Under the pieces are notes generated by a model. The model saw nothing but the letters and a program-made list of their open reading frames with translations, ran no database searches and was not told the DNA's origin. Shown piece by piece: positions 2,953-58,132 of a stretch of DNA of 64,000 nucleotides. A program made the translations under genes and the position numbers. Each line of letters begins with the position of its first letter. Position 1 is the stretch's first letter. Source of the DNA: Hexactinellida sp. DTS-2022 (lineage: Eukaryota > Porifera > Hexactinellida); contig JAPNXP010000005.1 of the NCBI GenBank assembly GCA_028753945.1, positions 2,480,001 through 2,544,000 of the forward strand, in the 5' to 3' direction.

Positions 2953-3484
2953 TATGTGTAGCTGAGGTAATGAGTCTAGTATTAATCAGGCTAATTGGTT
3001 ACAGTTATAAAAATAAACCCGCCTTTATCTTATTCCTGGTCCAAAGCAGTGAAATGGCCTTTATATAGTGGGCTATGCGTTAGATTATAAATAAGTGGTA
3101 AACAGTGAAGTAAATGGGAGATGACAAGGAATAGGTATTTGGGTGGAAGATAGGTAATTGAAATGAATTATTTAAATACAAGTTTTGAGGTTTCTAGAGC
3201 CTTTTGACGCTTTCGAAATTCTCGCATGTATTCTAATTTGCAAGATATTCGTAATCTTAATATTTTAGATACGTATTAATATATGTTTGCAATTTTTAGG
3301 TTCTTCACAATTAAATACGTGTCAGCAATTTGGCTGTATGATAGTACTAGAGAAAACAAAGTAAATATAGTGGGTGTCATATCAATGATTCAAACAACAT
3401 TTGAAAATTTGAATTAGATGCCCCTGTTCTCCACAGAATTCACATTTAAAGCTATTTATGAACTTGATAAATAAATGATTACTA
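2953..3484. other. Unassigned AT-rich stretch
   Basis: This lies between the P relic and the Tc1-type MITE. I see no coding sequence, no clear repeat, and no P-element terminal repeat. Confidence 0.4.
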
Positions 3485-3961
3485 CACTCCCTACCAAAGT
3501 ATTCGTACTCCAAAAGCATTCCCATAGAAAATAGTAATATAATGTGTCAATAATAATGTTTATTGTACACTAAATACATGGAATATTACAATTTAGATTT
3601 CATATTCGTAATCTACGCATTCGAAATATACATTTAAAGAAGCTTAGAACTCTATTAGCAACTGATTAGGTTGAAAATTATCATCCTATGCCACCATGTA
3701 CAACTTATTCCCATCTTGTACCATGGGGATAAATGGAAGAAGTGGTACATGGTGACACCGGATGATTATTTTCAAACAAATAAATATGTAATTGAGTTGA
3801 AAGCTTCTACATTGGTCAATTCGGTGGCGTAGAATACGATTCTGAAACCAAAGTGGCGACATCTCATATAATTTGTATACATTAGCGATAAATATTAGAG
3901 ATATATAGTACTATTTCCATAGGAAATTTTTGGGTGTACGAATACTTTTGGTAGGGGAGGG
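3485..3961. mobile_element. Tc1/mariner MITE
   Basis: A 477-bp element with roughly 60-bp inverted ends (about 3485-3545 and 3900-3961) and TA on both sides (3483-3484, 3962-3963). The end consensus, cactccctaccaaagtattc, resembles the widespread Tc1 terminus with its AAAGTATTC block. There is no ORF of note. Confidence 0.75.
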
Positions 3962-4329
3962 TATATTCCATGCGGACAATATATTCAAAAGATGTTTTGT
4001 GTGCATGTCACAGTGGCTTCGTAGCAGGGAATAGGAATTATTTTCATAGTCATATATATTAGTATTTATTATTTAGAAAGCACCTATATAGTCTTATTGC
4101 ATTATATTAGAAATTTCAATTGAATCTAATGCATATAAATGTATGAAAAGGTGAAAGTAAGACTGCGGATATGATGCAATCAAAAAAGTGAAATAATATA
4201 CTGTGAATCAGAGTGACTTTGAGGTTTTATTTCTTTCAATATCCACCGAGATAGTTCTTCTAATTTCCTTAACTTACATAATTAATACATGCCGAGTTCA
4301 TTTTTATCAATTATCTTACTCAATTCATA

Positions 4330-4660: not shown

Positions 4661-4670
4661 GCGTTTTAGT

Positions 4671-6219
4671 TTGGGAAATATATTAATCATAAAGGTCAAT
4701 TACAGTATGGCAGCTAGTACTATTATTCCAAAAACAAGACTTGATATGGCTGTTATCTTACAGAGAAATGGCTTTGATGTTCGCAAAACAATTGCGGAAG
4801 TAACAAAAATTGTTGATATAGACGATGATAAGATGGGTTCGTTATTCTCGTTAATGTCAAAGATCCATAGAAATTTTCAATCATCAAAGAAGTCGGTCGA
4901 AAATCTTATCGGGGAGTGGTGGAATTGTGAAATCCCTTGGCAAATACCAATCTCAAAAAGGCTCTGCCTAACATCCCTCAAACCATTAGCATCAGTAAGT
5001 CAGGAAGATGGTTCAGTTATGTTATCTAGACGTAAGTCTCTTGAATCTCTAACTTACAAGCAGCAACGCACTCGATTAGCAGCAGTATTATCATGTATTA
5101 GAGCGTCTGCTGAAGCTGAAAATACACCGCCATCTACTATAGTTGCTATTGCCTTGCAGCTATTATCCAACGAGGTGGATGACCGAAAAGTAGCCAATGT
5201 AGCTAAGAAATAGCTTATGATGGAGATTTTGGGAAACTAGTACACAGTCAAATCTCACTTGAAAAGTCTTTGTTTCTCCTTGATGCCCTGGAAATAGGAA
5301 AACGAAAGTACACAAAAAGAAGACAATTACTCATCTCTGATTTAGTGCATTTTCCCGCATATAATAAAGTAGCGGAACTAAGAAGCAAATTGATCTTAAA
5401 GTCTACGATCCAGTTCTACCCTGACCCTGCTAATCCTATAGGCGTTCATTACCCTTATCGAATTTTTGTACAACACACATTAGAACGTATTTTAGCTACT
5501 TTATCTGAATGCCAAATTGATGATTTCCCACTCGTATTCCAGATTTCAGATGGACTGGATGGTTCCGGTAGCCATGTTATCTATAATCAAGAGAAGACCA
5601 ATACAGCTACCAAAGATTTTATTCTATTTTGCTTTAAACCCATCTCAATTCGTTCAAAGTCTGGTCAGCTCTTTTGGGAAAATGATATCCCAAATTCCCC
5701 CTTTAGTCAAAGGCCAATATTCCTCTGTGCTGCGAAAGAAAGTGAAGCGACAATTCGGAGCTTAATGTCAAGTTTGATCAATCCTGATACAGACGAAATG
5801 AAAGAAAATGGCCTGACTTTACCGGAAGGTAAAGTAGATGTTGAAATTATTAGATCCATGTTTGATGGGAAAATGTCGGAGATTCTTTCTGGTGCTGGGG
5901 GAGCAAGCTGTCAGATGTGCACTGCAACACATAGTGATCTTAAGGACCGTGAGCTAGTCCTACAAGGATTCCCGATAAATAGACACATCACTGATGCTAT
6001 TGAAATTTTCAGTGATATGGAAAATGTTCAAGAATTCTTCACACTCCCTTCAAATGATCGCTTTAATTTGACCCACGAACCGATTACAACGATTGATATC
6101 AATTCCGCATCTCCACTTCATTCTTATACGTGCATATTTAGGTAAGCCATTAACAAATTAACATTAACAATTCTTTCCAAATTTAGATGGTTCAATCTAC
6201 TCGTTTATCACCTGCAGTA
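4671..6219 (+). pseudogene. RAG1-like transposase (copy A), C-terminally truncated
   Basis: RAG1-like DDE transposase of the RAG-like transposon family. The N-terminal part is open at 4671-5213; a better start may be the ATG at 4707 (MAASTIIPK). A one-base frameshift near 5206 leads into the second open part (5270-6145). Visible RAG1 landmarks, numbered from 5270, are: SDGLDGSGSH (Asp at about residue 94, corresponding to mouse RAG1 D600); RPIFLCAAKESEATIRSLMS, matching [20 protein letters not shown]; MFDGK (Asp about 199, corresponding to D708); and CQMCTA (C214 and C217, the RAG1 CTLC zinc site). The exon ends at 6141 with a gtaagc donor. A 45-bp intron (6142-6186, ending tttag) precedes WFNLLVYHL, then a stop. 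The part carrying the third catalytic residue is missing. Within these limits it is well preserved. No RAG2-like kelch repeats were seen nearby. Confidence 0.8.
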
Positions 6220-6274: not shown

Positions 6275-6509
6275 CAGGCCTTCATCTGGGTGCGCGGCGC
6301 ACACCCAGGGGTGCGTGATTTTAAGGAAAATGCTGGAAGGGTGCGTGAAATTGGAATTAATTGGGTGCGCAGTGCGCACCCAGAGTTTTTTTAATACTAA
6401 ATTTGGTCTTCTTTTGGTAAATATGCTATTTTTGGTCTATTTGGGTGCGAGATTGTAAAATAAACATTTCCTAGGGTGCGCGGATCTCTTAGGGCTAGAT
6501 GAAGGCCTG
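6275..6509. mobile_element. hAT MITE with exact 8-bp duplication
   Basis: A 235-bp non-coding element, flanked by atgttagc on both sides (6267-6274 and 6510-6517). Its inverted ends are caggccttcatct and agatgaaggcctg. It contains internal gtgcgc-rich inverted blocks. It sits between the RAG1-like copy A and its inverted partial copy. Confidence 0.85.
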
Positions 6510-6616: not shown

Positions 6617-6998
6617 ATATGCGTGCGGGTATAAGAATGAAGTGGAGATGCCGAATTGATATCAATCTTTGTCATCGCTTGATGGGTCAAGTCAAAGCGA
6701 TCATTTAATTAACATTTTCCACATCACTCAATAATTTAATAGCATCAGTGATGTGTCTAAAATCAACAGTGATGTGTCTAAAATCTTTCAACATGAGTTG
6801 GTGTGCACATCTAACAGTTAGCTCCCCAAGCACCAGAAACAATCGCCGACATTTCCCCATCAAACATGGATCAAATAATTCAAAAAGTGAGGCAATTTCT
6901 TTAATTTCATAAATATCAGGGTTGATCAAACTTGACATTAAGCTCCGGAAGTTCGCTTCACTTTCTTTCGCAGCACAGAGGAATATTGGCCTTTGACA
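6617..6998 (-). pseudogene. RAG1-like fragment (copy B), inverted
   Basis: The minus strand repeats the 5700-6140 part of copy A: SSLINPD, SMFDGKM-like and CQMC-like sections in a decayed form, then RHITDAI, the conserved NSASPLHSY region, and the exon end. A short duplicated stretch (FRHIT twice) and indels are visible. Copies A and B therefore form an inverted pair about 0.5 kb apart with a hAT MITE between them. Just beyond B, a ggggtaaaggtataaata block at about 7016-7080 recurs near 21857. Confidence 0.75.
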
Positions 6999-7266
6999 AA
7001 CCCAAAGCTGGCGGTGGGGTAAAGGTATAAATAATAATTACTTTCACTTTCAATTGAAAATGAATTAACTTTCAGTTTCAAAATCACATTCCTAGCCAGG
7101 CGAGGATAATAACTTATTAAATAAATAGGGAGAATTAGGGATATCGTATCATAATATCATTCTTCCATATGATTGTACCAGAATTTGAACGAATTGAAAT
7201 AGGTTTAAAGAAAAAGAAAATTTTGGTAGCTGGATATTCTCTTGATTGTAGATACATGGTATCGGA

Positions 7267-7458
7267 CAGGGGTTTATCCAGGGGCGCGCCATAGGCCTAG
7301 AGGCGTGTAAATTGTGATATGTTTTCGTTTAGGAGCGCGAAAATTGCCGAAAGTCCCCATAGAGTAAACAAAACTAACCTTTTAGGCGTACATAATTCAT
7401 ACTTTAGTGACCTTAGGACAGTTAGGAGTGTTCAATTATACTCCTGTATAATATCCTG
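7267..7458. mobile_element. 192-bp hAT MITE, copy 1
   Basis: Starts caggggtttatcc and ends tataatatcctg, with exact 8-bp duplication gtatcgga (7259-7266, 7459-7466). A second copy in the same orientation lies at 45631-45823 and shares most of its sequence, including ggcgcgcc-like, gaaagtccccatagagtaa and cataattcatact blocks. Confidence 0.85.
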
Positions 7459-7707
7459 GTATCGGAACAATGCAGTCCATGTGAAATCTGCAATACGAGT
7501 GGGAAATCATTAATTTTTGAACTAGAGAAAGTGGCTGAAATACGTTGTAATGTGTTGTACAAAAACTCGATAATGATATAATTAGTAAACGCCTATAAAA
7601 CTGGATCGTAGACTTTAATTAATCAAGATCTATCGCTTCTTAGTTCCGCAACTTTTATTTACATGTAAGATAACAGCAAGATCTTGTCTTGTTAATTGGA
7701 ACAATAA

Positions 7708-8310
7708 TATGTATCTATATATTAAAAGCGAAATTGTTGTCTGTTTGTGTGTGTGTGTGTGTTTGTCCAGAATTAATTGGAAAGACTACGAGTCCCAGAA
7801 AGCTGAAAATTTGTATCCTAGGGTAATTTTGTATATTGCGACAACGATCTATTGGTTTTCGAAGCGAAATAACGGGACTATGACGTCAGAAAGGCATATA
7901 TTTGGGAATAACACTTTCAGTTTTTACTGGATTCGCTCACAATTTTAGATCATAACACAACATACAATGAAACACACGTATACCGATTTATGGGATTGTG
8001 ACGTCACATAGGAACTAATTTGGATTCAGCTCTTACAATTTTGATTCGTTCGTCAAACAATTTTGTCACATTATAAAACAGAAATGCATTGCATGTCTCT
8101 AGAAATTTTTGTAATTTTCGCATTTAATCTCAGCCAGGCACTTACAAAAATGTAACCTCCAATTGCTGCGTCATTGCACATATTGAGGTTTTACGATTTA
8201 ATCTACACCTACATTAATTCCGAAATTACAGATTCAATAATCCAGTTTGCCTTCTATCAGTTTATTTTTATTGGTGATTGATGTAATAATTTATTAGCTT
8301 ACGTCAATCA
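7708..8310 (+). repeat. Helitron-like 5' region, shared with 19017-19600
   Basis: Begins tctatatattaaaagcga, then a TG-rich run (tgtctgtttgtgtgtg) and ttgtccagaattaattgg. About 590 bp aligns with 19017-19600, differing at scattered positions. TC at the start followed by tatattaaaagcg is a common Helitron-like 5' terminus. Because the Helitron coding region starts only about 160 bp downstream, I take this as the 5' end of that element. The copy at 19 kb would then be a non-autonomous derivative. I see no independent TSD; none is expected for rolling-circle elements. Confidence 0.6.
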
Positions 8311-11489: not shown

Positions 11490-14400
11490 TATTAAGAAAT
11501 TCCCTGCAGGGCTAGAAGAACTCACTTACACGAATTTCGCTGACGAGATTGTGTGGGACAAAAATAAGCGTGAATGGAAACCGAGAGTTAAGCGACATGG
11601 TAAATGATAGCCGTCTGTACTCAGCTCATCCAGGGGAGGGACCACGTTTCTACCTAAGGATACTGCTGAACTATGTCACAGGTTGCACGAGCTTTCAGGA
11701 CGTCCGTACTCTCCCTGATTGCACCGTCTGTGACACCTATAAGGAGGCATGTCTGAGACGAGGTCTGCTGGAGGATGATCAGGAAGCTGATCAGTGTTTG
11801 GCAGAAGCAGCTACCTGTTCTATGCCAGCACAGTTGCCTCAGCTATTCGTGACTATTCTCCTGTTTGTTGAGCCATCTATTCCACTCGCTCTCTGGGATA
11901 AGTACAAACCCTCTTTCGCTGAGAACTTCCTGTGTCGTGCTAGAACTGTATTCGCTTATGTAGAACTCGATGAGCATATCTTAAATAGTGTATTGCTTGA
12001 TCTTGAGTACCGACTGCAGAAACATGGAAAGTCCTTAGCTGACTACCCAGGAATGCCAATCCCTACTAATGTGAGTAATCCGTATGAGGAATCGCGTATC
12101 ATTATGGATGAGCTTGATTATAATGTTAGTGAACAGAATGATATAGTGAGTAATGCTGAACAGTTGAGTATTTATAACATTATAATTGCAGCTGTTAACG
12201 ATACTAATTCGTACTCTAATGCATTATTTATCAATGGACCTGGAGGGACCGGAAAAACGATCCTTTATAACATGCTGTTATCCACGGTCCGTTCACAGGG
12301 TAATATAGCATTAGCCATGGCTTCATCCTGTATAGCAGCTCTGCTCCTACAGGGTGGTAGGACTGTTCACTCTAGGATGAAGGTCCCTATCCATTTGAAT
12401 GAAATCTCTGTCTGCAATATTTCCAAACAGAGCGCCTTAGCTAGGTTAATTCAGCGCACCAGACTGTTTGTTTGGGTTGAGGCTCCTACGACACATAGAC
12501 ATCTGCAGAGTGTATCGACCGTACATTGAGAGATCTCTGTTCATGCGATATCCCATTAGGTGGAAAAGTTATTGTGTTTGGAGGTGATTTCCGTCAAATA
12601 CTGCCTGTAATCAGACATGGGACCGAAGCTGATGTTGTGTCAGCCTGTCTGAATAGATCGCCTCTCTGGAGTCATGTTAAGCTTCTTAAACTCACTATAA
12701 ACATGAGACTCCGTAATTTATCTTCAGGTGATGCACCCCAAGTTAGTGACTTCTCCAAATTCCTTTTGAGAGTTGGAGAAGGCACTGAGCCCGAGGATGA
12801 GAGTCATATGATTCACGTATACCGCAAATTCGTAGTAGCAGGCGAGTCAGTTTCTGATTTGGTTGCTGCTACTTACGTCGATATTAAGGTTAACTATAAT
12901 AATCCAGATTATATTTCTCGCCGTAGTTTGATGTGTCCTAAGAATGACACCACTGAGTTTATAAATCAATACGTTATGAACCTGATACCAGGGGAGGCGA
13001 GCACGTTGATAAGCGCAGACTCGGTATGTGAGGAGCAGGCAACAATGTACCCCACTGAGTTCCTAAATTCTATTACACCAAATGGTTTGCCTCCTCACCG
13101 ACTGTACCTTAAGGTTTACGCTTCTATAATTTTATTGCGTAGTCTTGATCAGACTCATGAATGTGTAACGGCACTCGGTTAACTGTAAAAGCATTCTTAA
13201 ATCGGATTACTGACGCCGAAATTGCCACAGGTGTTCATAAGGGTAAACGGATTTACATTCCCCGCATTCCCATGACTCCATCTGACTCAGACTTCCGTTT
13301 GTGCACAGAAGGAGGCAGTTTCCAATTCGTCCTGCCTTTTGTATTACCATTAACAAAGGGCAAGGACAGAGTTTAGAAAATGTTGGCATATTCCTACCAT
13401 CTCCGAATGCTATTTTCAGTCATGGCCAACTATATGTTGCATTGAGCCGAGTTCAAAACCCTGCCGGATTAAAACTTATGGTTTGTGGCGGCACCCCCTC
13501 CTCATCCGGCGGAGCCTTGGTTAAGAATGTAGTATATCATGAGGTATTCCAGAATCATTTGGGTAATGTAGTGCACTCCACTCAGGATACATGTACCATG
13601 GATGTGTCACTTCCATGCTGTCCCCTTTCGCATTCTGATTCCGAAGACCCGGTCTTTAGTACTGCGAAAATGGTATCTGTACCAGATGATTCTGAGCCAC
13701 TCAGTAAAAAACCTAAGCTAACTGAATTCAGTGATAATATCCTCAGTCCATTCCTGGATTCCCAATCTACTCAGTCTCCCATGAGTACTGATTTGCCTGA
13801 TTTGATGTTTGATGGTATTATCACAGGCCCGGTACATACTATGGATATTAATTTGCTCAATTGTTCCATAAATAACTTGACTCCCCTTATGCAAAGGAGG
13901 ATTGCCAGTAGTATTGGGTTAGATGTCGAACCAATTTTAATGACTAGAGAACCATTACTTCGCCCTCTTATTAATAATTACAAGCAATACTACTGTTCAC
14001 TGGAAAATAGATTGACAAATACATTTCGCATGAATATTTCTTTAGTACCAGTATTTTCCGATGGTAATTGTTTGTATCGAGCATTATCCCATATTATATT
14101 TGGTACTGAATCGAAATTTGAAATGCTAAAGCAGAATCTGATTGGTACATTCAAGTCGAGTCCACAACACTTTCCTAATGTTATGGAAAAATCAGGTTTG
14201 TACTCTGAGGAGGAATTGCATGAGCACGTACAACGTATTTCCGCTCCTCATGCATGGGGTACTGACGTATAATTAAGGATGTTAGAAGCTTTAGCTGGCA
14301 TCGCATCGTCTCCATTATTGCAACCGATAATGATTCCAATAACTGGAGACTACACAATGTTTATATCCATGGTCAACTAACAAGTCCAATAGTATGTGAT

Positions 14401-19994: not shown

Positions 19995-20034
19995 TATTAT
20001 TAAAAGCCATTACGTAATTGAGCTCTATGAAAAA

Positions 20035-20390
20035 TAATATAGCAAAAAGTGAAAGCTAAACAGTTTCCGTTATGAATGAGTAGTGATACAAATTGCACAT
20101 GTTATAATTGAGTAATATAAATACCAATTAGTAATTGCTATTACCAAGAAACAGGATGTTTGGAATGGGATGTGAACTGAAATACCATGTTGCGCATTGA
20201 AGCGGGGGATATAATTTTGATATATCACTGGTAAATAAAAAGCCATGTAGAACAATTTCAAGTCTGGGATGAGCTGGCATAAATGATTTCGGCTCTCACA
20301 CATCCAACCTTGTCGTTTTTAGTTCGAATGAAAGTTAGTAAATTCTAACTAATTTATGAAGTATTAGAGAATTACTGAAAATTTAATCCC
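20035..20390 (-). repeat. Inverted copy of the sequence upstream of the RAG1-like gene
   Basis: On the minus strand this matches 4330-4660, the DNA immediately 5' of RAG1-like copy A. Aligned blocks include ccttgtcgtttttagttcga, gtgaactgaaataccatg and gttatgaatgag. No RAG1-like coding sequence accompanies it here. It may be a non-autonomous or solo end of the same transposon. The stretch 20391-20951 beside it is unassigned. Confidence 0.5.
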
Positions 20391-20959
20391 ATAATAGCGA
20401 AAGTGTCCAATAACTTTTTCGAAATGATCAGCTATGGTATCATTATGAAACTTTGAAATGGGCCACATATTGCAAATAGCACTGTTAATAAATTATCAAT
20501 AATTGATTGTGAGCACATTGAACAATCGTAAATAAGTGATAATTCTTGTCATTTTCAAGGAATTAGTCAACTTAGAGTAAAATTATACCATGAAATTCTA
20601 AGAATTGAGTAAACAATTGTTAAAAACCAACTCAGCAAATTAATTTTATAATTTAACCAAATTAGAAGAACTTTAACGATATGTGAAAGATGTAAATCCT
20701 CGAAAACGGGCTAATTTACGTTGCAAGTTTTAATTTTCTTCTTTGCATGATACCTGCAGTATTATTTTCACATTTTCACACAGTTATATGCATTCGATTC
20801 AAGTGAAATTTCAAATATATTATTGACACGAAAGTAGAGCATAAATAATTATATGCAAAAATTTCAGGTTTTCGCTTTCTTCTTGAGCGATAAAGTAAAG
20901 AGCTGTTTCATTAAATAGACCATTTAGAAAAATATAAACGGGCTGATTCCGGCTGAATT

Positions 20960-23252: not shown

Positions 23253-25765
23253 AGTCTCACCTTTAAGAATCCTCAATTATTTTTAGTTCTTCGATGTATT
23301 TTTAACACTTGTAGATACAATTTATGTTATATAATTTCATCACTTCTGATACATACGCAGACTATTTGTTATTGTCACTGAAATTAGGACGATTTCTAAA
23401 CTCTATTCGTAGGCACTATATAATACAATTATGATTTTTAAGCCTTAAGGCTCTGTCTCAGGAAATTTATCTCTTCCTGTTGGAGCAATAGCCTTGGGTG
23501 TCAATAACTCCTACAGTGCATAAATTCATAGCTCATACCTGCCAATTCATTGAACTAAATGATAGTTGTGGTCTAAAGAAATTCTCAGAAGGTTTGGAGC
23601 AGGGATATAAACAGATACTTGGGTAAAGTGATATTTATCACGGAATTCCGATTTCTTTTCTGAAGTTAAGGAAATTTTCACCCGAATTTATTTAGTAGGC
23701 GACCCGATAATGAACGAAATGTTTCGTAAGTGCATTTAATGCAAAGAATGTGGTGAACTTGGACATCAACTAGAGGGTAGAGTTAACTTGAACAGTATGC
23801 TACTCATATAGATTATATTGTCCAACATATGCTTGTTGATAGTTTTACTGTGTAGTCAATATATTGAGTGATTAATGAGTAATGTTTGTCTAATCATTAC
23901 CAATATAAATTATAGCCAAATAACTTAACTACAATTAAGTTCTCAATCAGTGAATGTATTTGTCCAACCATAACAACCATAAATAGGGAATGGAAGGTAG
24001 CCGAATATTTTAGTTGCCGTGAACTTCCGTGAACAAATATTTTTAGATATTAAAGTTACATTGGATACTGTTTTATAAGTCTAATATAGGCTTTAGTGCG
24101 AGAAATAGAGGGAAAATTTTGTTGCTCATTAATTTGATTTAGTCATTTTTATTAAATATAGAGTAATGCTATATCATCGTTGAGTTTTCGTAGAGATAAA
24201 ATGAAATTCACTGATTGACAGGATAATATCAAAGGAAATACACGTAGGTTTATACATATCTACTTTTAAAGGAATTTAATAGTGAAATTTAGTATATATT
24301 CGAAATGTCCAATTTCAAAATACTTTGTGTTTTGGATGCACCCACTTATACTATAACTTCGTGTATGAACGAAATTGTAATATCTGAATGTCAAAAATTG
24401 GACTACTGGTAGCTATTAACCCACTGTGCAACAGTCCAAAAAAGCATTATGACTTGTGCCTCATCGAAATACAGACTAGTTCATGCGCCTCGTTAAAACT
24501 TTCGAAATCCTTGGGAAGTATCATCCATGGTCCAGCATTTCAATAGGAGATCAATGCTTTAGTATGTACAATGTAATGTAAACACTTAGTATTAAATCAT
24601 AAGCACTACAATTTCAAGGAGTCCTCAAGGCATGGGCGCTGAAAGGTGGGGTGCAAAGGGGGCAAGCTCGCTTGACCCACAGAATTAAGTCGATGACTTA
24701 AGTTTTAATATGTTTCCAAAAGTGATTTACCCATTTTTGGAACTGCCCCCGGCGTCCTCGGGGATTTATATAGTTCGGCGCATATGTAGGTATGTTAAGT
24801 AAGCTATAATCTCTGTAAACGATAATATCTTTACCTTACTCGCAAAATATTTGATCAACAGATGGTACTTTTTGAAATTCGAATATCGAAACTCGATGAA
24901 ACAAACATCAGTTGGAAACTTTAGATGAGATCAGTGGTTTAGACCTCGCAATATTGCAGTAACTGACAAACCATCTTAAACACACTACGTCGTAAGTTCC
25001 ATGGAATCAGCGTATGCAGAAAAAGTTGAGATTTATATTTTGACTCAATAATCTCTTTAATAATACTTGGTTAATTGGGACATCACTTAGGTAAATGTTG
25101 AATTAATTCTCCTTTCACAGTAAAGCACTAAATTTGAATATTGGAAAAATCGGTTAATCAAACAAAACATAATCCCCAGGCTGTATAAAATACATGGTTG
25201 AATCCATTGAAATTCGATAAATAAAAATTATGAAGGTAAATATATTAAAACACATAAACATACCCAAATCATTAATCTCGTGATATAATATTCGATGTAA
25301 CGAAGAAAATGGTGATAGAAAGTCAAATGGTCCATCAGAAAGCAAAATATTGCTATATTTTGGGCTGTGCAATTCTACATCGAATTTTAAACAACAAGCA
25401 ATCATATTAGCACAATCATTTTGGATTTTGATGAATAGAGAAATTGATTCACCTAAATTAAGGAAGAGAATATAAACTATGGCTTTAACAGTAACAAATA
25501 GAAAGTGGCTCAAAATGGCGATAATGGCCGAAAAGGTATTTAGGTGCATGCTAGCGATATATAATGTATTATTGGCCTATATAATATCGACAAAAATATT
25601 CGATTGACATAATCAGATTATATATATGGCTTCATTTTTATATATAATGAAGTCATCTATAAATTACCATATATGGTATAATTTACGTACTGATCAGATT
25701 TCAGCAAAGACTTCATTTTAATAGCACGCAATAATATCATAGGTGTAGGCGAGTAGAGCGCCCCC
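23253..25765. other. Unassigned region
   Basis: Mostly AT-rich single-copy-looking DNA. A 131-codon minus-strand ORF (25154-25549) is hydrophobic and matches no family I know; composition can explain it. Around 24630-24770, G- and C-run segments (ggtggggtgcaaaggggg; ctgcccccggcg) look like degraded hAT ends. Confidence 0.35.
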
Positions 25766-26117: not shown

Positions 26118-27340
26118 GCGCCGCCCCCCTATATTTTCAACCTGGGGGGGTGCTCGTAGGACGCCCCCACAGTGGGCACTTTCAGGGGCGTAACCGCGTA
26201 AGTGGAAATAGGAAAACTATGATAGATAGAACCTAATGAAGTATTATTGACATATAGGTTATCGGTAGCTGCAAACATAATGGCAATATCAAAAATGATA
26301 TAAGTAGTCTCCTAAAACGCAATTCTAGACGATTAATGATAAATCAGTCATAAATTATATTTTAGGTTTGTTAACAAAATTTATTGTTCAACCATGATTA
26401 TTGATTATAATTTTTGAACCTGATATAATTTTTCAAAAATAGATAAAATCCTAATATATTATGTTTAAAAGTCATTAGATGACCCCAGTCGCGCCCTTTC
26501 GCGCATCTAGAATACTTTTTAATTTGAAGGTATCATAATAATCTTTCATTTAAGATGTAAAAATCAATTGCTCATGATTGCTCTCAAAAGTTCTTGAACA
26601 ATATTGGAAATTAGTAAATGCGTCCGAATCATAAATTCTGGTCGGAATGTAATATAATTTTAGACTATATAAGAAGTTAAAATACATTCATGTACATTGA
26701 TTTCATACAATGCCAATGCCAATGATAATGCTAACTTGAATATTCATCAACATAATATAATTTGTTGAATTTTGTACGACTTTGATACTGCAATTCTGAA
26801 AACACAAAAATTGCTTTTTTTAGAATTGTTATAACATGATGATCTAATTACACATAACTCTTGATCTCGAATGTTTCTCAGCACAATAAATTGGATTTTT
26901 AGGTTTTCATGTATGCTGAAAACGATGTCAATAATATCGAGTCAATCTGAGGCGCTCGAAAAATGCTCTATTTCCACTTGTTTGCCCACTGTGCATGCAT
27001 GCGCGTGCGCCTGCACCCCCCCGCAATTTTGGAGCTATGATACCCAATTGTGTGGTCATTATATTCTAGATAGGATTGTTATCTTGTGGTCATGTGGTCA
27101 TAATATATTCAAATTAGGATACCTAATTAAGAGAAACCAAACTATGCGAATTAAGAATGATTTACTAACAACTAAGAATTCAATGTATGTGTTTGCAATC
27201 TAATTAATGAAACCTTTAAATAGTGTTATTTAGTAAGCTCTATTCAATTTAGAAACGTATGCTTCTCTCTGTTTTCATAAACAGTGTGTGACTTTGAGTA
27301 TATAAATTAACCATTTGTGATTTTACAAAAAGAATAATTT
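26118..27340. other. Unassigned region
   Basis: AT-rich. Two g/c-rich patches contain cccacagtgggc (about 26165) and gcccactgtgcatgcatgcg (about 26985), resembling hAT-end debris. No gene can be supported. Confidence 0.35.
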
Positions 27341-27341
27341 T

Positions 27342-29593
27342 ATATGTCCGAAAAGAGAACCCGAGAAGAACAGACAGATATCACACTGTTCCGCAACAAA
27401 AACTATGACTTAGTATGTAGCTAAACCAACCACTTTATTTGTAGAGCAGACTGAGCTAATAGAATTGCCTATTCCTGAAAGACAGTGGATCCAAGAATTA
27501 CCAAGCCCACGCCAAAGGCCGAAAGCGGTTATTCGATTCAGACGGCTTGGTTCGAGGAGTTTTCAAGACTAAAACTTGCGGAAAATTCGAAGTCATTATA
27601 TTGTATTAGCTGTCATTGGGCATTCGAACAACGTCACCTAAAACCTGCAGACATTTGAACTTGTACACATACTTCTTTTCCATGGAAGGAGCATGTTTCA
27701 GGATGGAGTAATTTCAAGAAGGGTCGTGATGGTATCAGGAAGCATAATGAAAGTGGTATACACCGCAATGCTGAATTTGCTATAAACCTCGCTAGGAATG
27801 CTGCAAAACATAAAGTTATTTTGGACGCAGGAACGAATAGTGAATTTGAGCTCAACAGAAAGGGACTAAGAGCTGTATTCGAAAGTATTAGGTTGTGCGG
27901 ACATCAGGGTCTGGCTTTACGTGGACATCGTGATGAAAACAACACTGCAAACCTTAACTGCATAGTTAACTTGATTGGAAAATTTAATATAATGGTCAAT
28001 CAGTATCTGACGGCTGAGAGTAAAATGAAGTACCTTTCGCCAGGAATCCAGAATGAAGTATTGAGATCACTAGGCCATTATTTACAAAGGAGCTTAATTA
28101 ATAGGATATAGACTGAATCTGTTGGGTTCGATGAAGAACCAGTATTTTCAATTATCTTGGACGAAACCACTGACATCAACCGAAAGGAACAAGTTTCATT
28201 TTGTATTCGCTTTGGTAATACTGACTTGCAAAGTGAAGAGGTTTTCCTTGGTTTTCACCTCACCAGCCGTACCAATGCTGATAGTCTGATCCACCTGGTT
28301 AAAACCTCGTTGCTGAGTTTTGGCCCTCCATTTACTGGAATACGTGGTCAAGGGTACGATGGTGCTCCAAATATGTCAAGGAAGAATAATGGTCTGCAAG
28401 CCAAGGTTATTGCTGAAAATCCAAAGGCTTTGTATTTGATTGTCTTGGTCACCAGCTGAACTTGGTTGTTCAAGATTCGTTTGCATCAATTCCTCAAGTC
28501 ATGATTTCACTGGAACGTTTGAATGCGGTCGTTCATTTTATAAAAAATTCACCCAAGAAGTTGGATCGATTTCAGACAATGATGAATGAGATAGAGAATA
28601 GAGGTGATAATCGGCAAGACAAACATTTATTACGTCCACTTTGTCCTACGCGTTGGGTTATGAGACTGGCCGCCGTTGATGCGTTCCTAATTCACTATGC
28701 AGCAATACTCGGAGTTTCTTGAGGCTATAGCAAACGATCTTAGTGAGCCAGGAAAGAGTAGGGGGGAAGCTGAGTCATATTTACATGGTCTTTAGTCTTT
28801 TCAGAATTACTGCAACCTACGGGTTATTCAGAGGCTTTTGCAAGTTGTTCATCCAATCCACGTAGAATGCCAGGGAAGAAAAGCGACAACCGGCGAGGTC
28901 AAATCATGGGCAAATACATTAATTTTAACCATAACCGCCTATGGCCAGGATAAAGAAATGCTTAGGCGCTCTACAAAAGTGTAAAGACTGTAACAATCCA
29001 GGACCTGCCGAAATTTCCGAGGAACAAATAAGGACATTTTATACCGAGCTTTACTCTTTGGTGATGGAAACTGGTGCGAAAGCACTTCTAGATAGGTATT
29101 CCAAGAATGATCTCGCTGTTGTCGAATTATTGAGACGAGGTTTGGAGGACAACTGCATGGTAGACTCAGAGCTGAACATATTGGCTAAGTTCCATGCTGG
29201 GGAAATCAAGCTGGATAACCTCCGCTTTGAGAGAAATATCTGGTTCGCCCGATGTAAAGGAATGCAGGATCAGCAGCATACGATTGCAACATTGAGGGAA
29301 AAGCTAGTCGAAGAGGATGCACTTAAGATAATGATCCCTAATATGCACATGCTTTGTGTCATATATGTTTGTCTTCCCGTTAATACTTGCGAGGCGGAGA
29401 AATCTTTTAGCATGCTAAGACGAATCCATACCTTCATGCGAAATTCTCAATCACAAGAGAGGTTAAATCAATGTTCAATTTTGGCCATCCATAGGGAAGT
29501 AACACATTCCATGGAAATTGAGCAACTCATTGAGGAGTTAATTGATTCGACTGCTCAAAGGAGAAACAAGTTCTCTCTATATACCTCCTAACA
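27342..29593 (+). pseudogene. hAT transposase relic, ZMYM1/DUF4371-like
   Basis: Cut-and-paste hAT transposase. Pieces in order: MSEKRTREEQTD near 27342; a TTF-like zinc region around 27560-27780 (SLYCISCHW, HNESGIHRNAEF); and the DUF4371 body at 27821-28111. SIILDETTDI follows at about 28151 (first catalytic Asp), then IRGQGYDGAPNMS at about 28340 (second Asp), and CPTRWVMRLAAVDAF at about 28640. The C-terminal dimerisation segment at 29340-29440 reads VCLPVNTCEAEKSFSMLRRI, which holds the Glu. Stops near 28110 and 28722 and frame changes near 27650, 28455 and 28800 break it. Both termini are unclear. At its right edge it runs directly into the RAG1-like relic on the other strand. Confidence 0.85.
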
Positions 29594-31850
29594 TATTAGT
29601 TGAGTGATTCAACCCATTCTTCTGAAAATAATTTCAGACCACATCCGTTGCTATGTACAGCAATTAGTTCAACAGAATGGGCTAGGAGTTAATGCAAAGA
29701 TGTGTGATGCTGACAAAGGGAAATTCTTTCATTATAAACTGATAAGTTTCTTTGCAAAAATTATTAAGTTTAAGGGTGTCCAGTTTGGAGCTGCTATTAT
29801 ACAGGAGTAAAATAACAGAAAGATTTTTCTGAATTAGAGCAATTGATGTTTTGTCCTCTGGTAACAAAGAAGAAGTTGCCCACCTAATGTAGTCCTTTTC
29901 ATTATGAAAACAGGATCGCGCTACATTTCCAGTGGAACTAGTGCCACCACCACACGAAGGGATATCTATGTGTAAACCAGTTTTCTCCAATAATAGGTTG
30001 CGATCCTATTCATAGACTGATGTATATCTGGAGATGTAGGAGACCACTTTCTTTGTCCTGCATCTAAGTTATAGATTAGTAGCATGAACCACCTAAACAC
30101 ACAGAGATAGCTATGCAAAGGTGACGCAGATATGATATCAATATTTGACATTGGGAGATGAGGTAAGCCATATCTCTTGTCGGAAGGTAGCTTCAAAAAT
30201 TCTTCTTCGTTAACAAACATCGTTGATAATGTCAATTGCATCTTAGACATGCCTATTTATAGGATAACCACACTCAACTAACTCGATGTCTGTAAGTTGC
30301 TCTCGTATTGCTGTACATAGCTGGCAAGATCACCTCCAGCTCCACTTAGAAAACCGGGAATTTTACCGTCGAACATAGTTCTCTTCACTATGACGTTCAC
30401 ATGACATGGAAAATATTCAAAACCAACTGTTTCCAGGATACGGGTTTCTGTATAATAATTTTATCCACTAGGTAATGAACATTTTCCAGGTTTTCTTTCT
30501 AAGCTCAGCAACTAATGCCATTGGCCTTTACTAAGGGTGAATTTGGGGAAGGATTGGTCCAAATCTCCTTTCCGGTTTTGTCAATTAGTGACAAAGCTCT
30601 AAATGCAAAAAGAATAAATGATTTGGTAGAGAGATTGGAATTACTAGGTGCCTGGTTATAGATTCGATGAGATCTTGAGCCATCTAAGCTATCAGCTATT
30701 GTTAAAGTAATCGGAAACTGAGATTCTTTAGGAACAGGATTGAGTTGTAACAATCGTTGAGTAGTGAGACTAACATACTTGCCAACCGTCCCGATTTTGG
30801 CAAAGATTTTGTAAATTGTCCCGCGTCTCGCTTTTGTACCCTGTATTTCATTTTTGTGACAGTAACATTAAAATATAAAGATCTGAGCATTTCTTCTTCC
30901 AATTAGGTAATAAATCTGTAGAATTAACTAGGGTCCCGTCTTTTTAGCGGGACGTCCCGTTTTATTGACGGGACGTTTTGTTTTATGCAATTGGATGAAG
31001 GTTCATTCCGTTGAGACAATCAAATTATTACAATTACTAGGACATCCGTATAAATAGTAATACTACTTCACTTATTTATGTACTAATGTTCTTTGTCCCG
31101 CCAAACTACCTTAAGGGCCGCCAAAATTCATTCCTCCTTCCCGCCAAAAACTTGCTATAGGTTGGCAAGTATGGACAAACCAAATTTGAAGGTATGACAA
31201 TATCAATTGAAACACCATGTTCATTGTGTATCATTTCCATACTATTTGCTGAAGCTATGTCTCTTCTATGTGCAGCAATCCATGCAAAAACTCAGGAAAT
31301 AGTATTTCTTCTGACTTGCAAATACGTTTTAAGTCCGAATATTTTTTCTTTCCAATTTCGAGCAGATCAAACAAAAATCTCTCGTTTGCTCCCCTTAGAC
31401 TCCCCTACATTTGCACTAGGAATTTCTCTGGAAATCTTAGCAGACCCTCTATCATAATTTGCATTGCAAATAGATTATAATGCAAGAGCTGCAATAGTTA
31501 TAGGTTCTGTATTCTCCCTATCACCAAGAAAAGAAATATGGTCTAGTAATACAGATAAATGTGTTCTTATTGATTCAAACGTGAGATCTGATATTGGTTT
31601 CCTACTTTTAGTACTTGAACGAAATTCAACGAATGAAATAGAATCCAAGATTTGACTTTCAGATTAACGTTTCTTGGAAGGGTTGCATGCTGCGGGTGAT
31701 AAAAAGACATTTATTTCCATGTGTTTATGTCATTATTTCGTACAAACTCTCTTCGAACAGGTACTAAATCTTTAAATTTCTTATTCAGATGAGTGTATTC
31801 AGATTCGGGTAAATCAAACAAGTTGAGGATATTTCGAGTTGCTTAACTAC
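29570..31850 (-). pseudogene. RAG1-like transposase (copy C), rearranged
   Basis: Minus strand. The N-terminal part (about 31850-31190) contains TFESIRTHLSVLLDHI and PITIAALAL, matching TYKQQRTRLAAVLSCI and PSTIVAIAL of copy A. A MITE (30774-31173) interrupts it. Next is TIADSLDGSRSHRIYNQ (about 30700-30650, first catalytic Asp). Then, out of order, a VAELRKKT segment near 30505 is followed by MFDGKIPGFLSGAGG (second Asp, about 30370-30325) and CQLCTA (zinc site). From 30250 on: ASPLHSYLCVFRWFMLLIYN without an intron, then GGTSSTGNVARSCF (matching RAG1 NGNFARKLM), and AHSVELIA followed by FSEEWVESLN (about 29630-29600). The last corresponds to the RAG1 E962 segment. RRY-type residues end it at about 29570. 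Several frameshifts and stops are present. It supplies the C-terminal half missing from copy A. Confidence 0.8.
30774..31173. mobile_element. hAT-type MITE inside RAG1-like copy C
   Basis: A 400-bp insertion with inverted ends catacttgccaacc and ggttggcaagtatg. Possible 8-bp target duplication agactaac/ggacaaac (6 of 8 match). The interior is rich in gtcccg and cgggac repeats. The transposase homology continues on both sides of it. Confidence 0.75.
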
Positions 31851-33433: not shown

Positions 33434-36400
33434 CATAGCCTACTATACATAAGGCCTAACATCAAAATGTGGATTTTGGACCAGGGATGTGTTAGCCGAT
33501 ATAAACGATAAAATACAGGCAATAGCAAATTTAGAGAAGATGTATATTCTTAGTCAGTTAAACCTTTCTAAAAGCTTTAGAACCATCATATCACTGATAA
33601 TACGGTTTGCACCCCATAAGCATACTAAAATTGAATACAGCTGATTTTTAATATTAATATATAATTCAACATATATTTAATAGTTATAGACATAATTTTA
33701 CAATTACAGGTCACAAATACATTATAAGAGGCAACACGGTACATTCATCACTCATTAGTTTCATCAACCATCTCGCAACAGCATCGAACTTCTCATTACT
33801 ATTTATTATTCTGACGGGAACATCACTAAATCTTTCTGTTACCTAGTGTAAAATGATAAAATATATTTGTGGTTCCAATTAACAATACACAAAATCAAAT
33901 CAACTAAGAATACACACATGAATACGTATGCTTTAATGGAATTTTTTAACTTTCGCTTCTCAGTATTCTTGAAAATCACCATAGAATTGTAATTTTTTAC
34001 CTTATTCGCAAAGAAGCAATTCCCAGCTACGAATACAAGCTTCTGAAGGATATGGGAACCATTCACACTACAAGATGAACACTTCTCTCTCCATAATTTA
34101 CAACCATCAGCATCTAATAATACATTCATAGATAAGTCAACAAGAATTTTTCTACAATGACCTTTCACAAATATCTCCATTAGTTCGCTATCATTTTCTA
34201 TGCAAATAAAGATCTTCCAAACAGTGACAATAGATTCTAGGACTACCTCCGATGGATATTTCAAACCTCCTCGATCAGCGAGTTCTAATAGTTTGAACTT
34301 AGATATAGTATCAGATTCATCGACGAGTAAATCTCTTTCAATAGTCAAAGAATCCCGGCATATACGACATGGTTGAGTACGTTTCAAGTATTGATGTACT
34401 GAATAGCCAGCAATAAAGGCTAATGACTGAAGTACCAGAAATTTACAGTCAATGGCTGAGAGGTCTGATATAGCGCTCAAGAAAGGATCAAGGTCAACTT
34501 CACTGGTAGAATCTGCGCTATCCGATGGTGAAAATGATTGAATGAACTCTTGCAAAGAAGTACTAGAATCATTCTGATTTGAAAATAGACGTAGTATATT
34601 GGATACTTTAAGACGACGTTCTGATTCTAAGATCTGAAGATAGGAAACATGATAATTAGCTCCTGACATCATACGATATAGTCCAAAATGATGTTCCAAT
34701 GGATCAGTCTGCAAGAAAGATGTCAAGAGGTATGAAAACCCACAGTCCTGAGTTAGAAAATTTGCTATCTGTGGCAACACGAGGCATGCTTGTTTGAAGC
34801 TGGTAAACGTCTGCTTGCTTAAAGAGCCAACTTTCCCAGACAGTGACTCCAAGCTTCTAGCCAATAGACAATCCTAGTCAGTAAGAGAAAACGCTCATAG
34901 TTAAATCTTATTGGATTAGACAATGGGTCGTTCAACCTGATATGTTTATATGGCATATTGATATTGAAAATTTTCCAGAGAGATAAGAGAATCTCAACGA
35001 AATCAGAGGTGTTGCATTTGAATGCAGGAGAACGCTGCTCATCCTGGATAGCTAGAGCAGCAATTGTAGATTCGTGTACTACTTTTAGGACCAACTTAAC
35101 ATTTTGACGTTCTAAATTGGATGGATAACAAGCCTTAGAAGTCAAACGAGGGGCAAGTTTAGCAAGGCTATCTCTCTCAGAATTATATAGTATACGGATA
35201 TCACGGAAAGAAGCATGACAGATATTCAATGGATAAGCGCATCGGTCAATAGAAAAACAGTTCAAATCAGGATAAGAAAAGAGCTTATTATCAGTTTGTT
35301 GATTCAACCAATTATTGCGAATAGTTTTCAGAATATGTACGAAGTCAAATGTAAGGAAAATACCTCTGCGTATATCACAAGGGTGTGGTACTCGAGTCTC
35401 CAGCTTTCTATTAGGGGAAAACAATTTGAAAAGTTTCACATTAAGGGGATAGTTGTCAGTGGAGATGATTTCAACGAACAAGCCACAATCTTCAACATCA
35501 TGAATACAAGATTTGATAGTGTCGAATAACTTTTCAGCTGTTACAGAAGCACATGGGAGTAGACGAACAATACAAGACCATTTCTTATACAGACTCGACA
35601 CCATGATAGCGAAAACTGTCTTGGTAGGATTATCTGGATCGAGGTTTGAAGCAAACAATCTCCCTCCTTTATAAGAAATATCAGATTTCACGTGAATTTC
35701 ATCCATTTGAATAATGACATGCCTCTGTTCCTGAGAAAAGGAATGTGTGGATTCCTTAAGAAACATAAAGAATTCATTTTCAAGTCCAAATGATGAATAC
35801 AATTTTTGTAAGGTATTGGAATGAGGAAGAGAAATGCAAGACATGCTCTGTAGATAGTGATAAGAAGCAGGAGAAATGAGATGTGTTTTAAGAGCTAAGA
35901 TCTGCGTCAATACGTTATACCTCCGCCTCTTTTTTGGAACAAGACTATTTCGAAGCTGACAAAGAACAAACTGGAGCCTTGAAACTTCAGGACAAGGAAC
36001 CAAATCATCATCAGATTTACCGTCGTACATATTATCAATAACTTGTTGGATATGACTTTCCGCAGATGCGATATGAGACGTGTTATCAAAATTAGTGGAA
36101 ATATTCCCAGAAATTTTGGGTGCAGATGGCGGAATAGAAATTTCAATTAGAAGCGAATCAATTTGTCGAACATCACATAGTGTTACGATAGAAATTGGAA
36201 GATTTTCACCATTATGAAAAACTTTGACGGACAAGTCAAAATTTACCGATAAGTACGTATTAACTTCAATCTTAAAACTATCTATACGGGGACGCATAAA
36301 AATTAATGCATATTCGTCGGGATACCACGTAGACCATATACTAGCAATTGAGAGTAAGGGTAACTTAGCTTGTAAATCATGGAAACTGTGGATCTTGAAC

Positions 36401-37168
36401 TTTTCATTCTCTTCGACATCTGACTCTAGACTTAGTTTAACTGCTTGATAGAGAAGTTCGTCATCCTTGTCCTCTAGAGATAGACGTGTGCGTTTGGTGG
36501 CAGTATGAGATGAATAGTACCGTGGACATCCTGGTAAAATAGTTGGCACAGCTCCAACTTTCAGCTTAGGACGGTTTCTTGGTATTTCTCGATAACTTCC
36601 GTCTCAATTAGGAACTTTGTGTGTTGTTTCGAACACATCTTCTCTAAAATGTTTTGAGCACACGTACACGACTTTCAGTTCATCTATATCATCTCTGTGT
36701 AGCGCTCGTAACCAAGCATGTCTCAGTTCATCCGGCGTCTGTGGCATCTTGAACACAGGTATTCTGTCGGTTGGATCATAATTACTTTTACAACCTGGTG
36801 CAGAACAGTTGTTGGGCATGATAATAGCTAGGTTAACGGAAACAGATTGGAAAGTATCAGAAAGGTGGATTAATAAAGAGAAATAGTGAGAAATAACGAG
36901 ATATTAGTGGAAATACAAATTTTTAGATAAATGTTTATATATGTACATTAGTGAATATATACATTATGGGTTATTAATAATTATATCTTCAAAATCAACC
37001 CTGGTTGCAAATTGACCAATTTTATGGTTGGTTTGGCATATTATAGACTATTTAGTATCAGAAATAGCCAATAAATGATAATCCCTTCGAAATCAATTCA
37101 TATCGGCTAACACATCCCTGGTCCGAAATCCACATTTTGATGTTAGGCCTTATGTATAGTAGGCTATG
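33434..37168 (-). mobile_element. Nearly complete P element
   Basis: A 3735-bp element inserted in the hAT transposase gene. Terminal inverted repeats are 69 bp with one mismatch (33434-33502 and 37100-37168); the tip is catagcctactatac. The target duplication is gctgcac (33427-33433, 37169-37175), 7 clear bases against the 8 expected of P elements. Minus-strand coding covers most of the interior. The near identity of the ends makes it the youngest large insertion in the window. Confidence 0.92.
33839..36819 (-). pseudogene. P-element (THAP9-like) transposase
   Basis: Starts at 36819 with a THAP DNA-binding domain: MPNNCSAPGCKSNY, a W in HAWLRAL, and VCSKHF (C2CH zinc). A single TGA (36604-36606) separates it from the in-frame remainder RNRPKLKVGAVPTILPG, where the open stretch 36549-34819 begins. 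Catalytic RNase H-like residues: Asp in QMDEIHV (residue about 283 of that stretch) and Asp in ISTDNYPLN (about 364). A one-base frame change near 34850 leads to the C-terminal part (34864-33839), with Glu in DPLEHHFGLYR. Total coding is about 1000 codons, in the family range. With only two breaks it is by far the best P-type copy here. Alternatively the second break could reflect a sequencing error. Confidence 0.9.
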
Positions 37169-56170: not shown

Positions 56171-58132
56171 AAACCCTGTAATCAATCGAAGGTTAAATAG
56201 CTCTATTGTCAGTCAATTCAACTATCAATAGGAAAAAAAAACATTGATTTCTGTAAAATAAAAAATTTCTCAGGTTTCTAGACCGAAAATAGAAAAAAAG
56301 CCAAAATTTGACATTCATGGATAATTAGCACAGTGGTTTATTGACAGGGAGTTGGACAATTTTTTACCAATTCTGATCTCTTCAAAAACGTTTTTATCGT
56401 GTTCAGCTTAATCGAGAACCTAGGTAACTGTTTTTACAGTTAAAAATTCCAAGTAGAATTAGAAATATGATGCAGTGTCTATAGTTTCAATGGCTAAATA
56501 TAATTGAAGAAATTTTGTGGTTAACTATTATGCATCATTTCATGCTCGTGTATCTCATTAGGTTTCGATCACAATCAGCTAATACTTTCACAGTGTTTAA
56601 TTATAGTTTAAATCATCCTAAAACTGTTGAATACTCTTCATATAATTATATGTCCTTTAGTATAATTATCATTGCAAATTATGATTAGCTGGAAGTGTCC
56701 GAACTGCTAAATTCCATGTATTGGTATTGCGAAAACTGTCGTGTCGTGTCGTGTCGTTTTACTAGCCCTATTTATATATAAAGTTTAACTATATAGCTTG
56801 GATTTTTACCACTTTCCAGCCCCGCGCAACCGCGCGCAAACCAAAATCTACGTGTCTATATACGGGGGCTTTGAAGATTTATATACGAAGATTTTAATTA
56901 TTTTTTTCAAAATTTCATCAATTAGTAAACTAAATGAATAATTTAGAAGCGTGGGATTACCTTTCAACCAAGGAAACTATACGGGTTGCTGTAAATGTAA
57001 TAGAAAATGCAAGGGTGATCAAATGCCAAAATTGGATCAACAAAAACTGGTCGAATCGTTGATGTTAAAAAAGCTGGTTATTTAACTGGCCTAGGCTCTC
57101 GAATTACATTATCAACTTAAATAGGTCTACACCATGCATTTATTTAGAGATGCATATAAATGAATTAGCTCTAGTTTATTTGAAAATACTAATTTAGCAA
57201 ATATTTGTGGAATTATGGGAATTAAAAAATATACTATGACGTCATAACTTAAAAATTTGAAGCCGTACTAATTTTCTGAGTCCATAAATGGATTCACAAG
57301 TATAGATAACCCATGGGTACATAATACATTTGATAGGTCTATCTGCTCTGGAAATACCTACTTCCTGTGAATGGTCCAAATAAACCACTGTGATTAGTAA
57401 GCACTTTTTATCTGTTATCGTAGTAGTATTGCTCTTATTAATAGTTGGTACTTTTTAGATCTATTGAAAACCGCAGAATTTTTGAAAATCGGACTAGTGG
57501 TTTAAATTACCTCGTTTCCGAAAAATGAAAACCCTGGTATGGCAATATGGAAAGATATAGGGAATATCCTGAGCGGCGACTGTCCATCAAAAAGTCACTT
57601 GGTCGGCGAATGTGGTGCATATAGATATAACTAATTATAATTAGTAGACATAGCATTTGCACACAAATTAATGTTTGCAGACCGTGTAGAGTCAAATAAA
57701 TTTTCAGAAGCCTCAAGATTTGGGGAAAGGTCATTTTTTTGTGGGGGGTTGGTTATTTTAATTTAAAAATAAATTATTTATCGGGGCATTTTAAGATTTA
57801 TATCAGTATCAAGAATGTTTTATAAGGGATACATACACCATACAGTGTAGAATGGAAATCGACAAAATTGGGTGTTTTTACTGTTTTATCTATTTGTCCA
57901 CCGGAGTCACCCCTCACTAATGAGCTCACCCTTTTTAAAAAAACCTGCACTTGCCACTTGCGGTACAAATGGGAATGTGTGTATCTCAGTGGAAACGATC
58001 GTAATAATTTTGAAATTGTGCACCTATAGTAATTAGACTATTTACGTAGTATTCAAATCTGAAATCAGAATTCGTATATTGTAATTGCTTCATAATCATC
58101 AGAAATTATATTTTAATTATCTAATATATAGT
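56171..58132. other. Unassigned region
   Basis: AT-rich. A pentanucleotide run (gtcgt repeated four times) lies at about 56737-56757. No gene is supported; small ORFs near 57507-57734 look accidental. Confidence 0.35.

Follow-up and report, generated by a model that had tools for sequence, protein, structure and literature searches.

Whether a RAG1-like coding region in a glass sponge genome belongs to a true RAG1-like (RAG1L) gene or to a more distant cousin of RAG1 is the question raised by a 64,000-nucleotide stretch of contig JAPNXP010000005.1 from Hexactinellida sp. DTS-2022 (positions 2,480,001 to 2,544,000), hereafter the window. An initial annotation, made from the sequence alone, had placed a RAG1-like transposase near the start of the window. 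The protein is indeed a DDE transposase of the RAG1 superfamily, but judged by sequence comparison the element that encodes it is a Transib-superfamily transposon, a cousin of RAG1 and not a RAG1L. The explanation that we favor, with a probability of roughly 0.93, is that of a dead cut-and-paste Transib, complete at its 5' end and lying inside an older Transib, in a genome that holds many relatives, some of them recently active; the transposase is the only gene seen in the bounded relatives, which would move by the mechanism proposed below.

The motifs SDGLDG, MFDGK and CQMC, reported initially as RAG1 landmarks, are present at nucleotides 5546, 5858 and 5909, all within one open frame of the window copy (5207–6142), and the block RPIFLCAAKES lies in the same frame between SDGLDG and MFDGK. 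In an alignment of one relative with a bird RAG1, these sites fall on RAG1 residues D600, D708, C727 and C730, in what we take to be mouse numbering. Such matches are not due to chance, since the 312-residue window piece matches HzTransib, the Transib transposase from Helicoverpa zea, at 1.3e-7; the value for amphioxus RAG1L is 5e-4, and those for vertebrate RAG1 are 0.11 or worse. The single frameshift described initially is also present, as the frame of the N-terminal part (4662–5210) differs from that of 5207–6142. On the forward strand, the N-terminal part of the transposase spans 4707–5210, with a stretch resembling the RAG1 nonamer-binding domain (NBD), RRKSLESLTYKQQRTRL, from about 5031, and the catalytic and zinc part spans 5207–6141. 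The start of the feature, originally put at 4671, had to be moved: the element begins at a terminal repeat at 4009. An exact CACAGTG heptamer at 4009–4015 is the sole occurrence on either strand between 3500 and 9000, and the alignment with the closest copy, L059 on contig 6, starts exactly there and extends to 6218 at 95% identity. The left (5') terminal inverted repeat (4009–4035, forward strand) includes a second motif, AGGGAATAGG, at 4026–4035, an offset of 18.

The C-terminal truncation at 6143 needs correcting as well, since the stop there falls inside a probable small intron of 45 bp (6142–6186, forward strand, reading GTAAG...TTTAG), as judged from the following comparisons. L059 has a 57-bp insert at the same place, while the motifs flanking it are directly joined, with no insert, in 10 other loci of the genome. 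In L023, L024, L025, L030 and L037 no such insert was seen by eye, the strict flanking-motif pattern having failed there, and L034 has a longer, different insert at this position. The next exon starts at 6187 (WFNLLVYHL, 6187–6218), and similarity to L059 stops at 6218, so that the window copy has lost its right end and the C-terminal portion of the transposase. L059 is 3,383 bp long with CACAGTG at both ends and a perfect target duplication, CGTCA, on both flanks.

What surrounds the window copy is also Transib. On the reverse strand, sequence matches identify a decayed older copy in several pieces, its N-terminal to middle part at 6629–7709 and C-terminal and 3' untranslated pieces at 3164–4008 (3418–3164, 3473–3421 and, weakly, with E 0.015, 4008–3983). 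The weak match ends at 4008, abutting the left end of the window copy. The simplest reading of these matches is that all inverted pieces derive from one older copy into which the window copy inserted; a later deletion would have taken the right end of the window copy together with the middle of the older one. Between the two copies, at 6287–6509, lie palindromic GGGTGCGCRGYGCRCACCC repeats, and the stretch that holds them resembles part of locus L004 (87%). In favor of a domesticated host gene in place of a transposon relic, one might say that the genome has many transposase copies whose open frames are long. However, the window copy is frameshifted and abruptly broken off, carries a terminal repeat and sits inside another copy, and the match of its nearest relative, L059, to the window piece holds six stops in an element with a perfect target duplication, which makes domestication a very remote prospect.

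The initial annotation had anticipated intact relatives and proposed a genome-wide search for them. Using the window piece as the query against 112 Mb, with 127 of 651 candidates scored, we obtained at least 132 matches (the window copy is counted, and a few loci account for two rows); 13 rows of the match table are free of stops, with open frames of 690 residues or more. Near-identical copies at different sites (99.1–99.9% over 2.4–3.7 kb, and one further pair at 98.95%) indicate recent movement. At 14 of the 20 loci fetched, exact CACAGTG ends enclose the gene and are flanked by 5-bp target duplications, perfect in 13 and with one mismatch in L055; no such pairing of ends and duplication was found at L042, L046, L048, L051, L054 or L057. 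An empty site is available for one insertion, as a repeat in L042 has TGCCC once and the L040 insertion has TGCCC on both sides. The whole-frame transposases of bounded relatives are 711–749 residues long. None of the 14 bounded elements shows a second gene: among the four longest frames of at least 90 residues per element, those other than the transposase reach at most 127 residues, with broken transposase pieces (a 164-residue frame in L045 and frames of 146–192 residues in L059) set aside. The RAG2-like gene that was to be looked for beside the copies was thus not seen in these elements. In the genome search, the RAG2 profile found nothing and the RAG2_PHD profile gave one match far below the cut-off (E 0.8, 16.6 bits), both without a suitable positive control. 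According to PMC4411706, autonomous Transibs usually number one or a few per animal genome, and against that statement the copy number here is high. The abundance and preservation of Transibs in a glass sponge genome were unexpected.

Is the family truly Transib rather than RAG1L? Among proteins of solved structure, an insect Transib is the closest in sequence to the window piece and to two relatives. A RAG1 profile search, the check suggested initially, gave no match in three window pieces; the proteins of this genome that were scanned scored at most 37.9 bits and the best single genome stretch 32.4 bits, versus 245.7 bits for the amphioxus RAG1L fragment. A weak signal of this kind is what a Transib is expected to give. 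The outcome that the initial annotation had named as speaking against it, a non-RAG Transib with no RAG1 signal, is thus nearly what was found, a Transib placement with a weak RAG1 signal present. Neither the three window pieces nor five relatives (scanned six times, as L012, L032, L001 within L057, L023, L057 and P0039) showed a zf-RAG1, RING or importin-binding domain, whereas a bird RAG1 was positive in the same scan. L012 is 22% identical to the amphioxus RAG1L fragment, and low identity and the lack of the N-terminal region are the features that separate Transib from RAG1L in PMC7204232. In a tree of 67 rows, two RAG1 proteins and the amphioxus RAG1L fall on one side and the 64 others on the opposite side, with a support of 100 in the SH-like approximate likelihood-ratio test (SH-aLRT). 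This tree was built by a quick method, is unrooted and includes one RAG1L only, and the place of HzTransib in it is unsure because its branch is very long.

Apart from a single bird RAG1, every named homolog among the matches listed comes from Oopsacas minuta, a glass sponge. A Wnt profile found no match in this genome, in a search without a positive control; a paper on two glass sponges bears the title 'Animal multicellularity and polarity without Wnt signaling' (PMC5684314), and PMC10282587 is in line with it. Both findings make a glass sponge the probable host. Four Oopsacas minuta proteins (P0022, P0037, P0040 and P0047) are named 'V(D)J recombination-activating protein' in UniRef, yet match these Transib proteins, and P0022, the sole one of the four in the tree, groups among the Transib proteins. 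The comparison suggests that these automatic names mark Transib transposases. L057 (1216–3309) belongs to a more distant Transib family, whose own farther relatives in public contigs are 31–50% identical; L057 and its relative P0136 each have a sub-threshold match to Pfam DUF1280 (E 2e-4 for L057). A bacterial or archaeal source was considered and rejected, a pattern scan having returned a single weak locus, in Aquimarina (28% along a short segment), that by eye is an unrelated 230-residue frame. A scan of viral contigs gave no match.

The active-site and zinc residues are conserved in the alignment. The D, D, C and C positions are occupied as such in all 50 aligned rows, the two H positions in all 42 rows with letters there, and all of 42 rows have an E in one or the other of two neighboring columns. 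The window copy keeps D, D, C and C and has lost the region of H, H and E. In four relatives the zinc region measures 64–68 residues, compared with 59 in amphioxus RAG1L, 63 in mouse RAG1 and about 29 in HzTransib, a count that includes 16 residues not visible in the source. A CCHC tail of the CTT1 type is also common (of the rows with letters, 37 of 40 have the first C, 38 of 40 the second and 37 of 39 the H): L023 is without the tail motif, L059 has another residue at the H, and the tail of the window copy is lost. Structure alignment shows that the relatives keep an NBD-like domain.

These same features are what a proponent of a true RAG1L gene would point to, one belonging to a RAG-like (RAGL) transposon that lost its RAG2-like (RAG2L) partner: the landmarks follow in RAG1 order, and the NBD-like domain, the full-length zinc region and the CCHC tail are common to RAG1 or RAG1L. 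Mouse RAG1 is even the first Foldseek match (1.8e-23), with HzTransib just behind (2.5e-23), and it is HzTransib that has the highest Z in structure alignment (33.2). For these models, the predicted fold alone does not separate Transib from RAG1. We reject RAG1L membership because of the profile scores, the N-terminal domains not found, the single-gene elements and the tree split, to which the low identity of L012 adds, and consider it quite improbable. The folds of the P element, ISCth4 and Hermes fall far below Transib and RAG1 in the structure alignment. Placement in another DDE superfamily (Chapaev/CMC, hAT or P element), with the terminal repeats and the sequence matches taken together against it, has next to no probability, the lowest that we assign.

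In most elements compared, the ends pair a short and a long spacing. A GGRAATAGG-like second motif follows the heptamer in many elements and is different in other subfamilies, such as those of L044 and L052. In a census of 204 kb (the window and the 20 loci), the second motif was matched 21 times over 49 distinct CACAGTG sites, at offsets of 17 (2), 18 (7), 27 (10), 28 (1) and 36 (1), while six scrambled heptamers used as a control gave none in 73 sites; the second motif was picked after inspecting ends, and some census loci are near-duplicates. In the window, CACAGTGG occurs 10 times, versus 0.90 expected. A motif-free comparison set the 5' and 3' ends of one and the same element against each other in 12 elements, with 200 shuffles each. 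The set consisted of 11 bounded elements out of the 14 (without L041, L045 and L053, which are near-duplicates of L040, L044 and L043) and a non-autonomous element of the window at 56329–57392, which has the same kind of ends, no gene and no known polarity. That element, with a target duplication ATTAG read from its flanks, is also asymmetric: on the right the second motif is at 27 and on the left, by eye, at 18. The best shift was 9 or 10 bp in 10 of the 12 elements, tied with another shift in one; L049 and L056 were the two of the 12 without it. Significance for single elements is modest (in 4 of the 12, no more than one shuffle in 200 did as well, and in L047, one of the ten, 39 did). Summed over the 12, identity is 0.62 at shift 9, versus at most 0.37 at other shifts. 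All nine elements that have both a gene and the shift are short at the 5' end. A looser heptamer rule brought in four more bounded loci, of 24, with shifts of 9, 9, 9 and 14, and their summed identity peaks at 9 as well (0.62 vs. at most 0.42); two of the four (L034 and L037) repeat subfamilies already used. The end asymmetry is thus found in most of the subfamilies compared.

How do these elements compare with known systems? HzTransib (PDB 6pqn/6pqx), the best match of the sponge proteins by sequence and by Z, has heptamer-type ends (PMC8289069), and 5-bp target duplications are described for Transibs (PMC7204232). It differs in its short zinc region and in ends that are termed symmetric (PMC8289069), whereas most sponge elements compared are asymmetric. 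No NBD-like counterpart was seen in the HzTransib structures, as the alignment runs only from residue 195 of the sponge model, although NBD equivalents have been reported in both Transib subgroups (PMC9435367). The Subgroup I Transibs of Tao et al. (2022) are described as having a retained α11-α12 zinc region, a CTT1 tail and asymmetric ends (PMC9435367), and the sponge proteins share the zinc region, the CCHC-type tail, the NBD-like domain and the asymmetric ends. In zinc region, tail and ends they fit this description, which makes them candidates for Subgroup I. Asymmetric Transib ends as such are not new, given a few insect cases with 12/23 spacing (Drosophila Transib5, Anopheles Transib2 and N1–N3; PMC8355894). 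Those elements, like the sponge ones, have heptamer-type ends, one short and one long spacing, and no RAG2; they differ in that their second sequence is nonamer-like, where that of many sponge elements is GGRAATAGG-like and the asymmetry extends across most subfamilies.

RAGL transposons such as ProtoRAG and the algal AanRAGL share the RAG1-type core, CAC ends and 5-bp duplications (PMC7204232 and PMC9435367). By arithmetic from its 13-bp element and 4/13-bp spacers (PMC9435367), the second motif of AanRAGL lies at 18 and 27, the offsets of many sponge ends. Unlike the one-gene sponge elements, RAGL transposons also encode RAG2L, and on the RAG1 profile amphioxus RAG1L outscores the sponge proteins by far. 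The recombination signal sequences (RSSs) of vertebrates have the identical heptamer, CACAGTG, and likewise one short and one long spacing. Their nonamer, ACAAAAACC (consensus in PMC8289069), differs from the GGRAATAGG-like motif of many sponge elements, and their spacing is 12/23, compared with about 13/22 here, depending on the motif start chosen. The sponge ends are thus not 12/23 RSSs, the second motif found differing from the nonamer in both sequence and spacing. A search by title or the start of the abstract, which did not extend to the supplement of PMC9435367, found no paper on glass-sponge Transibs, and the word Transib does not occur in the main texts, as available, of the papers that describe the genomes of Oopsacas minuta and Aphrocallistes vastus. 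The text of PMC9435367 speaks of hundreds of metazoan Transibs, and in a figure legend the Transibs compared include those of ctenophores, Hydra and bacteria, with no sponge named; sponge members may already be among its supplementary sequences.

From these observations we infer a mechanism by which such elements would move. The catalytic core of the transposase would bind the CACAGTG heptamer, and its NBD-like N-terminal domain would bind the second motif, so that one short (5') end pairs with one long (3') end. Nicking and hairpin formation would then take place at the heptamer border, and the ends would be joined to a target staggered by 5 bp. What the sequences show directly are the ends, the 5-bp duplications, one pair of filled and empty sites, the short 5' and long 3' spacing of most elements compared, the conserved residues and the near-identical copies; catalysis, the hairpins, the assignment of domains to motifs and any rule that the two ends must differ belong to the proposed scheme.

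The rest of the window is rich in transposon sequence. Further Transib remnants lie at 29575–30795 (reverse strand), 23390–23766 (forward) and 20006–20819 (reverse), the last resembling L059 in the region upstream of its gene and nowhere else. Facing pairs of CACAGTGGGCA ends, ~0.8–1.1 kb apart, are present at 903–2023 and 26168–26993 and are perhaps non-autonomous Transibs; no matching target duplication was seen by eye at either pair. For the end at 26168, the offset of the second motif is 36, nine bases past 27. An element at 11516–14269 (forward strand) has PIF1 helicase frames and an OTU protease domain, which we interpret as Helitron-like, and a second Helitron-like end (Pif1 2B and OTU) is located at 61980–63524 (reverse). 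A hAT dimerisation domain at 28935–29588 (forward) and a TNP-like RNase H frame at 34822–36603 (reverse) indicate that several kinds of DNA transposon are present.

The window element is a Transib, and as such of a known kind; it is the architecture of the ends and the domains of the transposase that bear on the origin of RAG signals. How V(D)J recombination came by its pair of short and long signals is disputed. According to PMC8355894, asymmetric ends are rare outside vertebrates, the cases listed being ProtoRAG and a few insect Transibs, while in PMC9435367 every Subgroup I Transib is claimed to have them. The sponge Transibs are of interest because they have RSS-like ends where no RAG2 was found. 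Tentatively, and as a possibility that we rate somewhat below even, a RAG2-free Transib transposase with a RAG1-like NBD may enforce the pairing of short and long CACAGTG ends in this sponge lineage. If so, the logic of the 12/23 rule would be older than RAG2 and would have been present in the Transib stem that gave rise to RAGL, a proposal testable with a single protein. A large sponge family that combines the RSS heptamer, asymmetric ends and a RAG1-like NBD, and in which RAG2 was not found, could be used to test whether RAG2 is needed for asymmetric synapsis.
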